A stretch of 64,000 nucleotides of DNA. Source: Branchiostoma floridae. Its lineage: Eukaryota; Chordata; Leptocardii; Amphioxiformes; Branchiostomatidae. The position numbers and the translations under genes are program-made. The notes below the pieces were generated by a model. That model had not been told where the DNA came from and searched no databases. It saw only the letters and a program-made list of their open reading frames with translations. The stretch lies in the NCBI RefSeq assembly GCF_000003815.2, contig NW_023365749.1, forward strand, positions 278,678-342,677, in the 5' to 3' direction. This document shows positions 12,360 through 63,564 of the stretch, piece after piece (the first letter of the stretch is position 1; each line of letters opens with the position of its first letter).

Positions 12360-15300
12360 ATAAAGTTGGCTCCTCAAACAGCAGCATTTTCATAACGAGA
12401 AGCCGGAGATGGCCGTCCAACTCTTCCCTCACTAGTGGTAACAACACTGAACAGTATTCACTCTTCACAGGGAAAAAAAGCATGCAGAAAAATGCATCCT
12501 CCTCTTAACTAGCTTTAACTGTCTTCCTGTACGTCCTAACTTGTCCTGCATGGTACATGTACATGCTTTATCCCTGTCTGCAATGGAATGCTACTGACTT
12601 TCCTCCCATAACTTCCACTTTTCCTTGATGTTTAAGGTCACACAATTCTGTGGGTAACATTTTATGGCAACCTCAAAAATATACAAAAATGAAAGTGTAT
12701 TTTTCAATAAGATGTTTTGCAAAAAAAGTGCTTTTCTTTCATGACAGAAAGCAATATATTCTCATTTTACAACAATTTACAGAAATTCAATCTATCCGTT
12801 TGTGTCAAATTGTTATCATGATATCTTTATTATGAGAACAAAATCAGCATATCTGAATGTTATCCATGAGACCCTTGTGTGACCTAACCATGACATCCCT
12901 CCGCCTTTGCACAGCCACTAACACACCCAAACCCTTGTCCTTAGAACAGAAGATACCACTAATCACACACCTGGTGGTAAAACGTCTCGGTGGTGAAATC
13001 TTCTGGTGAACACCTGCATGGGCTCAAGCACAATGTCTTAAAGAAATGTTTCAACGTCTTGTACTTGTCTCTGAGTCTTTGTTTTGTGTTGCTTTTTCTT
13101 GTAGCAAAAACTACTGTCACGAAGCACCATGCAGGGTCCAGAGGTCCGCGGTACCGGCCGCAGAGTCTACAGAACACGCCGCGGCCGCAAGGACAGGGCG
13201 ATGTCACGCGTCGCATACTCTCAGCGCGGCGTGTTAAAATCAAGGACCTCACGAGTCAGATCTTCGAGCTGCAGCGGGAGCTCGACGACTTAAGACGGGA
13301 GAACAAACTCCTCAAGACGCTGCAACACAAGCAAGAAAAGGCGCTGACAAGATTCGAGGATCAGGAAAGCGACCTGCCGCAACTTCTCGCGCGACACAGC
13401 GCGGAGGTTCGGAACTTGAAGGAGCGGTTACGACACAAACAGGACAGTAACCACCGCTCGGAACAGAAGATTAAAGACTTGCGGGATGACCTGGAGAAAA
13501 AGGAGCACCAGGTCTCCAAGCTGCAGAAAATCGTCAGGGACAAAAATCTTGCCGAGAGAGATGAGCTGAACAGGAAGCTGATGAGGACAGAGCAGATGCT
13601 GCTGGATAAGGAGAAAAAAGTCACCGTAAGTCCTTCGTGGTCGTCTGTTTTTTGTTTGTTTGTTTGTTTGTTTGTTTTACATACCTGGTAAACCTCCTTA
13701 AGGCGTAACACACCAAGTCTGTACTGAACAGTACAAGCTGCATATTCGGACAGAGTTATTTGATCTACACACATAGGGAAGAACCCCTTCTCTTTTGTGG
13801 GTCGTGGTGGGTTCTTTAACGTGTTGGTGGTGTGGCTCTCCTCAAACACAGGACCTCCATTTAACGTCCTATCCAAGGGACGGCCCTAACCAAAGCTAGA
13901 TACTTATTTTCACCTGAGTGAAGTGAGGAAAGTCATGTAAAATGCCTTTCCCAAGGGCTCAAGATCGGTGACAGATTCGAACCCAGAACCTCTGACTTTG
14001 TTCCTGTAACAGCTCTTCATAAAAGCAGCATCAAAATGACTACCATACAATAGGCGTGATATACACAAAGGCATTGTCTTTCATCAAGATAAAATAGATA
14101 AGCTTCTGAGTACACACTTTAGCTAACGGACAAGACTTGTACAGCTTTCAAGTGGGGGGGAAGAGGGCTAAAAAATAGGGGAAAACTTGTACAGGGAAGT
14201 TGGACTATCAATGTAACAATTCGGACGAAACATTCTTACAAGGACTGTGCAAAAATTTTAACAGTAAAACATTTTCCCTTGTCATTCTAACACTTCTCTC
14301 AATGGTCTCCACCATAGCACAAAGCTCCTACAAGCTACACTAACTGATCCCTGGGCATTATGTTGACAATAGCAACAGCTTTAACAGGTTAAATGGAGCC
14401 TGTAATACTGAACTGTGGGGAGGGATCGGGACATGGTCCAGTTACTGGGTCACTGGGTCGGAACTGTTACTTATAGTGTTGACTGGAAAACATGGTTTGT
14501 TTGGAAAACTGCAAGTTATCAGAATTTGTAGCCAGTACTGTTACTAGAGAATGTTCCTGCCAAATTTATGTAGCCTTTCTTACAGCTTCTTTTTTATTAT
14601 CTGTATTCTTTAGCCAGGGTAGCCCAGCTCAGAGACTTTGCAATGCTCTTCAGTGTTGCTCTGGGTATACATGAATAGAACATGAGCACAATGCAAGAGA
14701 CAACTAACAAAAACAAACAAAATGAATCTACGTACATGATATCAAGTTCAAATCTGTTTATTTGTACGTTTCTCTTCCTGTTTTTCTCATGAAAATAGTT
14801 GTTTTGCAGTAGAAATAGTTAGCTAAAAGTTGTCAGAGGCAAAGGATAGTGGATGCTGTCTGAAAGATTTGACCATTTCCAAATTTTATCTAGTTGCTTC
14901 AGTAACTGTTACCTTATGTATCTTACTACCTGGATGTCTAACCTTCATTGACGATCTACACAAGTCTCAGACATAGTCTTTTAATGCTCTCGCGTGACTA
15001 GGTCACTCCTTGAACAAATGTACTCTGAAGACGTAAAAAAATTGGAGGTACATGTTTATGCCTTCCAAACTGTCATTGGTTGAAGAATATTCTATTATCT
15101 CTACAGGAGTTGAATAAGCACCTGGAGCTGGTACAGGGCAGCTCAACACGACAGCTGAACGCTGAGCGGGCGCGACACAAGGAGACTCAGGACAAACTCT
15201 CGTCACTGCAGGAGGAGTACGAACGTCTTCAGAATAAACTCAAGGTGGGTACAGACGTCTTCAAATTACACTTAAAGACAGACGTCTTCAAATTAAACTC

Positions 15301-62600: not shown

Positions 62601-63564
62601 GATATTCCACCACCATACAGTACATGGGGATGGACAGAATGTTTTTTTTTTCTTACCTGTACCACCTATTTTCTAGCCTGGTCTTGATAGTGGTTAGGTC
62701 CGTGGGATATTCCACCACCATACAGTACATGGGGTAACAGTTCAGGTCCACCGGCGCGTTGAAGGCTTCCGCAGGGGCTAGGCTCATGACTTCTTCTATA
62801 CACTGCAAAAACAAGACATGTGTTAAGAACTTTTTGTTTTATCTTATTGAGGAAACTTTAAAAAATACCGGTAAATAGATTTATCATATCTATCAAATAA
62901 ATCTACCACATTTGTGAAAGGATTGACAAGAGAAGTGACATAACACCTTTTCAAGATGTCAACCTGGAGACGAGACTGCAAAGTTTTGAACCACCTACAC
63001 CAGGATGGACCAATAACTTCTTCAACTTTTTTTCAAATATGATAGGTTCTTAAATGTGCTCTCCTCAAAGTCAAACACGAGACCCCAAGCTTTTTACATC
63101 CCATCTATTAGGACTTCCCTAACTAAATCTAGATACTCATTTTCAAATGACTCAAGAAATAAGGGTAAAAAAACCTTTCTCTAGAGAAAAACACAGGGCC
63201 CAGCTAATCTCCAAGCAGATCCTACAATGGCATAAGATAGTACCAAACTGGCCAGGAGATAGTCAGCCAAGAGGTGTACATTTGCCGGTAGCGAAACACA
63301 CTCCTAAGCCAGCTTCACTCCTCTGCCAGCTTTTGACAACTATCTCATGCTACCGTAGGATCTGCTTGGAGATTAGGCCCAGCCAGGGACTTGAAACCAG
63401 AACCAGAACCAGTCATTCAGATTCTAAGGAACTTACAGCGATGATTCTGTGACAGTCGGGTTCCCTTCCCTCCGAGCTCCACTCCGACTCCTTCGGACTG
63501 TACCACATCGCCTTCCAGTCGTCTGACGTGATCTCAATCCCTGTGTGCGCATCGTCCGGAAGAT
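56628..63564 (-). CDS. PHIP: PHIP/BRWD-type WD-repeat bromodomain protein, C-terminal half
   Basis: A chromatin reader that acts in DCAF/CUL4 and histone-binding roles in the nucleus. Eleven exons are in the window: 63437-63564, 62657-62802, 62138-62263, 61496-61574, 61216-61263, 60653-60808, 60027-60179, 59451-59587, 58246-58589, 57714-57866 and 56628-57154, all phases consistent, about 665 codons. The 5' part, including the WD repeats, is off the right edge. Bromodomain 1 spans exons 1-3 ([16 protein letters not shown], then [20 protein letters not shown], then [16 protein letters not shown]). Bromodomain 2 spans exons 6-8 ([60 protein letters not shown]). In bromodomain 2 the usual acetyl-lysine Asn is Thr (YTP), as in human PHIP. 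Then follow Asp/Glu runs, a Ser-rich tract, and a C-terminus [19 protein letters not shown] resembling the end of PHIP. Which of PHIP, BRWD1 or BRWD3 it best matches is not settled; an invertebrate would be expected to have one. Confidence 0.93.
60229..60419. mobile_element. Mariner-like MITE (copy 4)
   Basis: CTGTAAATGCAAAAACTTTG to CATTTACAG, TA on both sides. It lies in the PHIP/BRWD intron between the two exons of bromodomain 2 (60179 and 60653). Confidence 0.78.
60995..61090 (-). repeat. Dispersed repeat copy, reverse orientation
   Basis: 'cagccattctggagttatct', 'accaacaaacacacagacac' and 'aatataaccttcttgaccaa' are the reverse of the 10175/29270 family. Confidence 0.45.
62515..62632 (-). 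pseudogene. Partial duplicate of a PHIP/BRWD exon
   Basis: The stretch 'gtggttaggtccgtgggata' to 'ttccaccaccatacagtaca' is nearly identical to 62688-62735 inside the real exon (62657-62802), and the homology runs on to the donor. In the duplicate the exon end is changed (extra 'acttgcggggt' on the coding strand) so the frame shifts, and the splice site reads CAG|GCAAGA, not GT. It lies downstream of the real exon in its intron. Confidence 0.8.
63055..63170 (-). mobile_element. Degraded SINE remnant
   Basis: 'ctctcctcaaagtcaaacac', 'gagaccccaagc' and 'ctagatactcattttcaaatga' follow the reverse of the SINE body at 29644-30056 and 13730-13990. Confidence 0.4.
63205..63375. mobile_element. MITE with perfect 21-bp 'taatctccaagcagatcctac' ends
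   Basis: TAATCTCCAAGCAGATCCTA and TAGGATCTGCTTGGAGATTA are inverted and identical. Inner words 'ggcataagatagtacc' and 'gacaactatctcatgctacc' pair loosely. Same family as 32463-32619. It lies in a PHIP/BRWD intron, 62 bp before the exon ending at 63437. Confidence 0.8.

Follow-up and report, generated by a model that had tools for sequence, protein, structure and literature searches.

Exon-edge tandem repeats in a 64-kb stretch of amphioxus DNA are mirages, and intact donor motifs are over-represented in short-period repeats of the genome

We analyzed a 64,000-nucleotide stretch of the Branchiostoma floridae genome (contig NW_023365749.1, positions 278,678 to 342,677 of the forward strand), in which tandem repeats border several coding exons and carry copies of the exons' own edges. 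This whole stretch is called the window, and coordinates are counted from its first letter. We found that these arrays are further mirages and are unremarkable in number, whereas across the assembly an intact donor consensus recurs in tandem repeats of short period more often than comparable motifs do, a genome-wide excess that is worth following. Mirages are tandem repeats across exon-intron boundaries in amphioxus. According to PMC3087553, the name was coined for the Adh3 repeats and globin genes have them too, they apparently leave splicing undisturbed, one gene carries 6 and 3 units in its two haplotypes, and a part in intron gain has been proposed for them. The lancelet PGBD5 has such repeats as well, and troponin C is cited as a further case, in the available part of PMC3902484. 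A first, sequence-only reading of the window had regarded a mechanism behind the structure as new to it; the structure itself had already been described in these two papers, which report mirages gene by gene. Our literature search, in which coverage of subscription papers was poor, found no genome-wide survey of mirages. The question at stake is whether duplicated splice sites are a source of intron gain and alternative splicing, or neutral debris.

A tandem repeat that spans and copies an exon-intron boundary, which is how we define a mirage, was found in the window at LCA5, GET1, the last exon of PHIP and, with 4 exonic bases only, APEX1. The names that the sequence-only reading gave to these four genes are borne out by Pfam and PDB matches. 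In LCA5 (lebercilin; PF15619, E 4.5e-52), the exon at 15107-15244 (+) was recognized from the sequence, the PF15619 match and an exon model score of 42.8, the model having been seeded with a peptide from that same exon. Its 3' end falls within a donor-side array at 15223-15355 (+) of about four copies of 32 bp, identified by Tandem Repeats Finder (TRF), by sequence and in the comparison of array anatomy given below. The unit holds the exon end together with the donor, and the best-matching pair of copies has 19 nt of exon edge plus the donor in common. The donors GTAAGT or GTGGGT are retained by some copies and lost from one. In GET1 (PF04420, E 2.2e-10), exon 2 at 24068-24233 (-) was placed by sequence and the Pfam match. 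The donor of this exon is overlapped by a TGAC-rich array at 23637-24091 (-; same three sources as for LCA5), whose 228-bp higher-order unit copies the exon end and the donor AGACAG/GTTAGT.

Two cases lie on the acceptor side. The APEX1 exon at 35825-35937 (+) was recognized from sequence, the exon model and a PDB match (2o3c, E 1.1e-68) that supports the gene name, and it lies downstream of an array at 35353-35828 (+; TRF, sequence) with 2.8 copies of a 134-bp unit and nested periods of 43 and 76 bp. The units are degenerate copies of TGTTCCAG/GCTA that reach the acceptor of the exon, and the array as called by TRF includes just 4 exonic bases. Decayed copies that contain GGCTAGACTACC are present near 35330, upstream of the called array. 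A separate 15-bp minisatellite (36449-37120, 44.5 copies, 94% match) lies about 500 bp 3' of the same exon. In PHIP, the last coding exon at 56628-57154 (-; sequence) carries an acceptor duplication of two 64-bp copies at 57140-57268 (-; TRF, sequence), an additional case that was absent from the sequence-only reading.

That reading had counted five genes with exon-edge repeats, and the count stands in part. The donor arrays of LCA5 and GET1, the acceptor array of APEX1, an array at a coding end and a partial exon copy in PHIP are all present, but the fourth of these involves no splice site, and the PHIP copy is not a TRF array. The fourth is a 71-bp array at 40186-40935 (-; TRF, sequence) that copies the coding end with its stop codon into the 3' side and is therefore not a mirage as defined here. 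It belongs to a gene of unconfirmed family whose last coding exon lies at 40878-41096 (-; sequence). The label "ATP-grasp" once attached to this gene found no backing, since the two peptides tried matched no Pfam family and the one PDB match had E 0.8. In PHIP, the exon concerned lies at 62657-62802 (-; sequence, exon model, PDB match), and the match to PDB 3mb3 (E 5.8e-50) supports the name. A single partial copy of its end lies at about 62545-62629 (-; sequence), at a spacing of 112 bp downstream of the exon end. It has GC instead of GT at the donor, and TRF reports no array there.

For the number of such cases, we compared array positions with random placement. In the window, 41 TRF rows were merged into 28 array loci (period at least 10; 4606 bases, 7.2% coverage). 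The 69 splice edges were taken from model exons, with six exons set by hand and the model versions of those removed. The exon predictor was a small self-trained coding and splice-site model that used no annotation; it was seeded with peptides from the window genes and trained on the window plus a random sample of 26 random 10-kb stretches (260 kb, including about 12.6 kb of N). At score 18 it gave 126 exons in the sample, where reversed decoys yielded 13, and 37 in the window, where they yielded 3. Four of the 28 window arrays straddled a splice edge by at least 4 bp, compared with a mean of 3.4 in 3000 random placements (P 0.44); at a threshold of at least 6 bp, where APEX1 falls out, the count was 3 of 28 against 3.2 (P 0.66). 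The 71-bp array and the PHIP partial copy are left out of these counts because the former has no splice junction and the latter no TRF array. Of the 51 arrays in the random sample, 3 straddled a predicted exon edge, where random placement would give 4.3; with other exon thresholds the counts were 5 (5.4 expected) and 3 (3.1 expected). The sequence-only reading had argued that independent minisatellites would rarely all fall at exon boundaries, and had held that arrays which, genome-wide, are no commoner there than at random intronic positions would speak against it. This is what our small sample of 26 stretches with predicted exons gave, and in view of the null placement in both window and sample the rarity argument was dropped. 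Arrays are dense in the window, with 28 loci in 64 kb compared with 51 in the 260 kb of the sample, and given this density and the density of exons, clustering at exon edges is as expected. Array coverage in the window was 7.6% for noncoding sequence, 3.0% for exonic sequence and 5.8% for splice edges. Position weight matrices run over 68 TRF units and their shuffles gave, for donors, 6 observed against 6.7 expected at 8 bits or more and 2 against 0.8 at 10 bits, and for acceptors 8 against 5.6 and 3 against 0.6, all of them small numbers.

The genome-wide motif test opposes this null result. We counted exact patterns across the assembly (513,431,437 bases), where the donor consensus MAGGTRAGT occurs at 26,530 sites and its backward reading at 19,446. 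A second donor copy lies 24-54 bp downstream of 2879 of the 26,530 sites (10.9%), compared with 44 of the 19,446 sites of the backward motif. When GT was changed to AT, only 43 of 16,608 sites (0.26%) were paired at this spacing, so that the donor rate is 42-fold higher per site, and the background for any 9-mer pair in the random sample was 0.54% (bootstrap 0.22-1.07). At 55-85 bp, a range that largely omits the 51-bp satellite discussed below, there were 784 donor pairs against 49 backward, not corrected per array. With T placed at -2 and the intron side left as it was, the motif gave 686 pairs against 89 backward, and the 100 listed places among these form about 14 clusters. The acceptor consensus signal is far weaker than the donor signal. 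A loose acceptor motif gave 2573 pairs against 1232 backward; since its single occurrences number an estimated 201,000, and the backward ones 145,000, many of its pairs are due to chance. The tight acceptor consensus gave 245 pairs against 9, a rate of about 0.8% on a total of some 31,000 sites, which was estimated from 15 sites in the random sample.

Site counts overweight long arrays, and a count per array was made on the 100 listed donor places, which cover the first 29.24 Mb of contig C1. These places form 16 clusters, four of which (44 places) belong to a dispersed 51-bp satellite recognized by eye. The remaining 12 clusters compare with an expectation of 2.5, calculated from the 31 clusters that the AT motif forms genome-wide (Poisson P 1.3e-5), which makes the donor excess per array about five-fold in this part of C1. 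As for the satellite itself, it lies at C1:8046904, 9479866, 20224899 and 29239765, and two of these sites have it in both orientations. Its unit contains donor-like and acceptor-like sequence (CAGGTGAGTAA...TTACAGACCAGGTAAGAC), and it looks like an intron fragment that has become a satellite.

With the four satellite clusters left out, we read 450-660 bases 5' of the first donor motif in each of the 12 others. An exon-end score of at least 18 was reached in five clusters (L035, L036, L037, L038 and L043), two scored 14-18 (L040 and L046) and five scored lower. Of six peptides searched, three gave Pfam matches, namely dynein AAA_7, TALPID3 and cornichon, all of them among the five clusters that scored at least 18. 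The exon of L035 had no Pfam match and resembles that of another dynein heavy chain. Two of these loci contain a second, different donor-like array 5' of the exon of the main array, at about 1-325 in L035 (AACAG/GTGAGC) and about 1-320 in L037 (AAAG/GTAACA); perhaps these are mirages of the preceding exons.

The anatomy of donor arrays was compared in ten cases: LCA5, GET1, the partial copy in PHIP, and the seven C1 arrays in which an exon is recognized or possible. The exon edge matched the compared copy ungapped over 5-34 nt, and over at least 15 nt in seven of the ten. In L035, L037, L040, L046 and LCA5, the remaining 5-19 nt or so of the short unit are intron, with periods taken by eye or from TRF and the anatomy comparison. 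In L036 and L043, just 6 and 5 nt matched the exon end itself, and by eye the L036 unit lacks an internal part of the exon; L038 contains nested duplications of two sizes. As far as examined, the copies are located on the intron side.

Taken as a whole, the arrays are probably tandem duplications of short local segments that lie across an exon-intron junction by chance and are tolerated by splicing. Such duplications would arise anywhere in noncoding DNA through replication slippage or unequal exchange. Coding exons would reject them, as the lower array coverage inside than outside the window's exons suggests, while duplications spanning a junction would be tolerated as long as splicing goes on using the exon-proximal site. 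One copy would then remain the working exon edge, and the others, being intronic, would be spliced out with the intron. Rejection by coding exons together with tolerance at junctions would account for the number of exon-edge arrays in the window. The genome-wide donor excess needs an extra factor, such as a hot spot, retention, or homogenization from the conserved exonic copy.

Several results weigh against this reading. Copies of junction-centred 30-mers within 600 bp showed no excess: in the sample they were present at 6 of 122 donors and 5 of 121 acceptors, compared with 379 of 9945 near-exon noncoding control positions, and the same test in the window gave 2 of 36, 1 of 36 and 179 of 2687. 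The per-array figure comes from a single contig, C1. The number of intact places per cluster, 56 in 12 for the donor and 43 in 31 for the AT motif, is not an obvious prediction of neutral decay. An exon score of at least 18 was found in 5 of 12 donor arrays, yet also in 3 of 8 ordinary donor motifs from the sample, and for this reason we cannot claim that donor arrays are more bound to exons. The clusters with no recognizable exon (5 to 7 of the 12) likewise exceed the 2.5 expected. What is over-represented is the intact donor motif. On the side of a donor excess, a search for local copies at 15-90 bp in window and sample combined gave 8, 7 and 6 of 158 donors at thresholds 20, 22 and 24, compared with 184, 118 and 82 of 6054 nearby noncoding positions (P 0.115, 0.040 and 0.024), and 5, 5 and 3 of 157 acceptors (P 0.52, 0.20 and 0.36). 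This test was given little weight, as the positions used for its control depend on one another and a doubtful array of the sample stretch L019 supplies some of the donor hits. That array (6245-7045 of the stretch) can be read through as an open frame, with GEPTEQEN among its repeats, and is either a coding repeat or a frame held open by its period. The exons predicted within it are probably artefacts, and they feed the donor counts of both the 30-mer and the 15-90 bp tests.

A more far-reaching reading, which we put forward only tentatively, is that 5' splice sites are preferred birthplaces or refuges of minisatellites throughout the genome, with donors copied severalfold over comparable sequence, acceptors much less, and intact spare donors persisting. 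If it is true, there are introns with rows of U1-type sites, which are possible backup donors or raw material for new introns. A donor-specific excess abolished by a single base change would allow the long-standing question of what becomes of duplicated splice sites to be tested in a living genome.

It is unlikely that the pattern is pure coincidence, with dense minisatellites of which some fall on exon edges and a donor excess produced by satellites scattered through the genome together with a small number of long, homogeneous arrays. The null placement in window and random sample fits coincidence, and so do the 44 of 100 listed donor-pair places that belong to the 51-bp satellite and the roughly 14 clusters behind the 100 listed of 686 places with T at -2. 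However, 12 clusters against 2.5 expected persist after the four satellite clusters are removed, the ratio at 55-85 bp is 784 to 49, and several arrays begin exactly at recognizable coding exons.

We regard it as improbable that selection retains spare donors, whether repeated U1-type sites behind the exon help to define it, act as a reserve for the primary site or guard the transcript against early polyadenylation. The copies in the window are often degraded (the PHIP copy has GC, and one LCA5 copy lacks GT), and long homogeneous arrays yield the same pattern with no selection, the 100 listed of the 686 places with T at -2 lying in few arrays. Nor is exon specificity evident, with high exon scores in 5 of 12 arrays and 3 of 8 ordinary motifs. 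In favour of selection, donor clusters are richer in intact places (56 in 12 clusters, compared with 43 in 31 for the AT motif), the one-base change from GT to AT abolishes the effect, and the donor-like motif with T at -2 retains part of it (686 against 89 backward).

In the model of Rogers (1989), introns are reportedly gained through tandem duplication of AGGT-containing exon segments, both intron ends deriving from the copies. Our arrays resemble this model in duplicating a segment with AG/GT, which occurs within many units, but the window copies, judged only by eye, stand at one intron edge and not both. It is very unlikely that the arrays are intermediates of such a process, although tandem duplication was proposed as a route of intron gain for amphioxus globins (PMC3087553, in the part available). 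We give next to no credence to the idea that the donor pairs with a complementary segment of the unit in a hairpin that drives expansion or masks decoy donors: a complement of at least 5 nt, looked for post hoc, occurs in 8 of 12 arrays compared with 18 of 163 ordinary predicted donors (shuffles 15.5), and donor-ACCTG-donor occurs genome-wide at 93 places in 20 clusters compared with 3 places in 2 clusters for donor-GTCCA-donor, in which the 5-mer is read backwards (the two 5-mers number 549 and 458 in the random sample), but the ACCTG form accounts for at most 93 of 2879 donor pairs, C1, the contig that prompted the idea, holds 5 of its 20 clusters, the longest complements are in arrays with no recognized exon (L042 and L044), and the explanation fits a small subclass at most. 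Arrays carrying ACCTG, the complement of donor CAGGT, are located at C1:221810, 1464397, 5704215, 5850094 and 8671280 and in 15 further clusters.

Two other features of the window were recorded. An open frame of 386 codons lies at 50997-52157 (-), and the 218 residues searched match PF04843 (Herpes_teg_N, E 6.9e-07); our guess is a cellular gene or a piece of a mobile element. A perfect two-copy tandem duplication of 99 bp at 4268-4469 points to an event of very recent date or to a segment doubled in the assembly.

The mirages of Adh3 are said to have been first described by Canestro et al. in 2002. As presented in the accessible text of PMC3087553, they are like the present arrays in spanning the boundary, in having units of 10-72 bp and in keeping AG/GT in many, not all, copies. 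Unlike that report, the present work concerns other genes and adds a whole-genome motif count, while splicing and length instability are reported for Adh3 and our arrays are known from sequence alone. The globin mirages in the same text are similarly placed, with BflGb6 on the acceptor side as in APEX1 and PHIP, and BflGb9 on the donor side as in LCA5 and GET1; their units are about 150-160 bp, compared with 22-134 bp here and 228 bp in GET1. PGBD5, in the available part of PMC3902484, has imperfect tandem repeats with units of 60 and 108 bp at its splice sites, and their copy number varies between two sequence versions. That part treats one gene and gives no genome-wide count, whereas the motif count reported here covers the whole genome.

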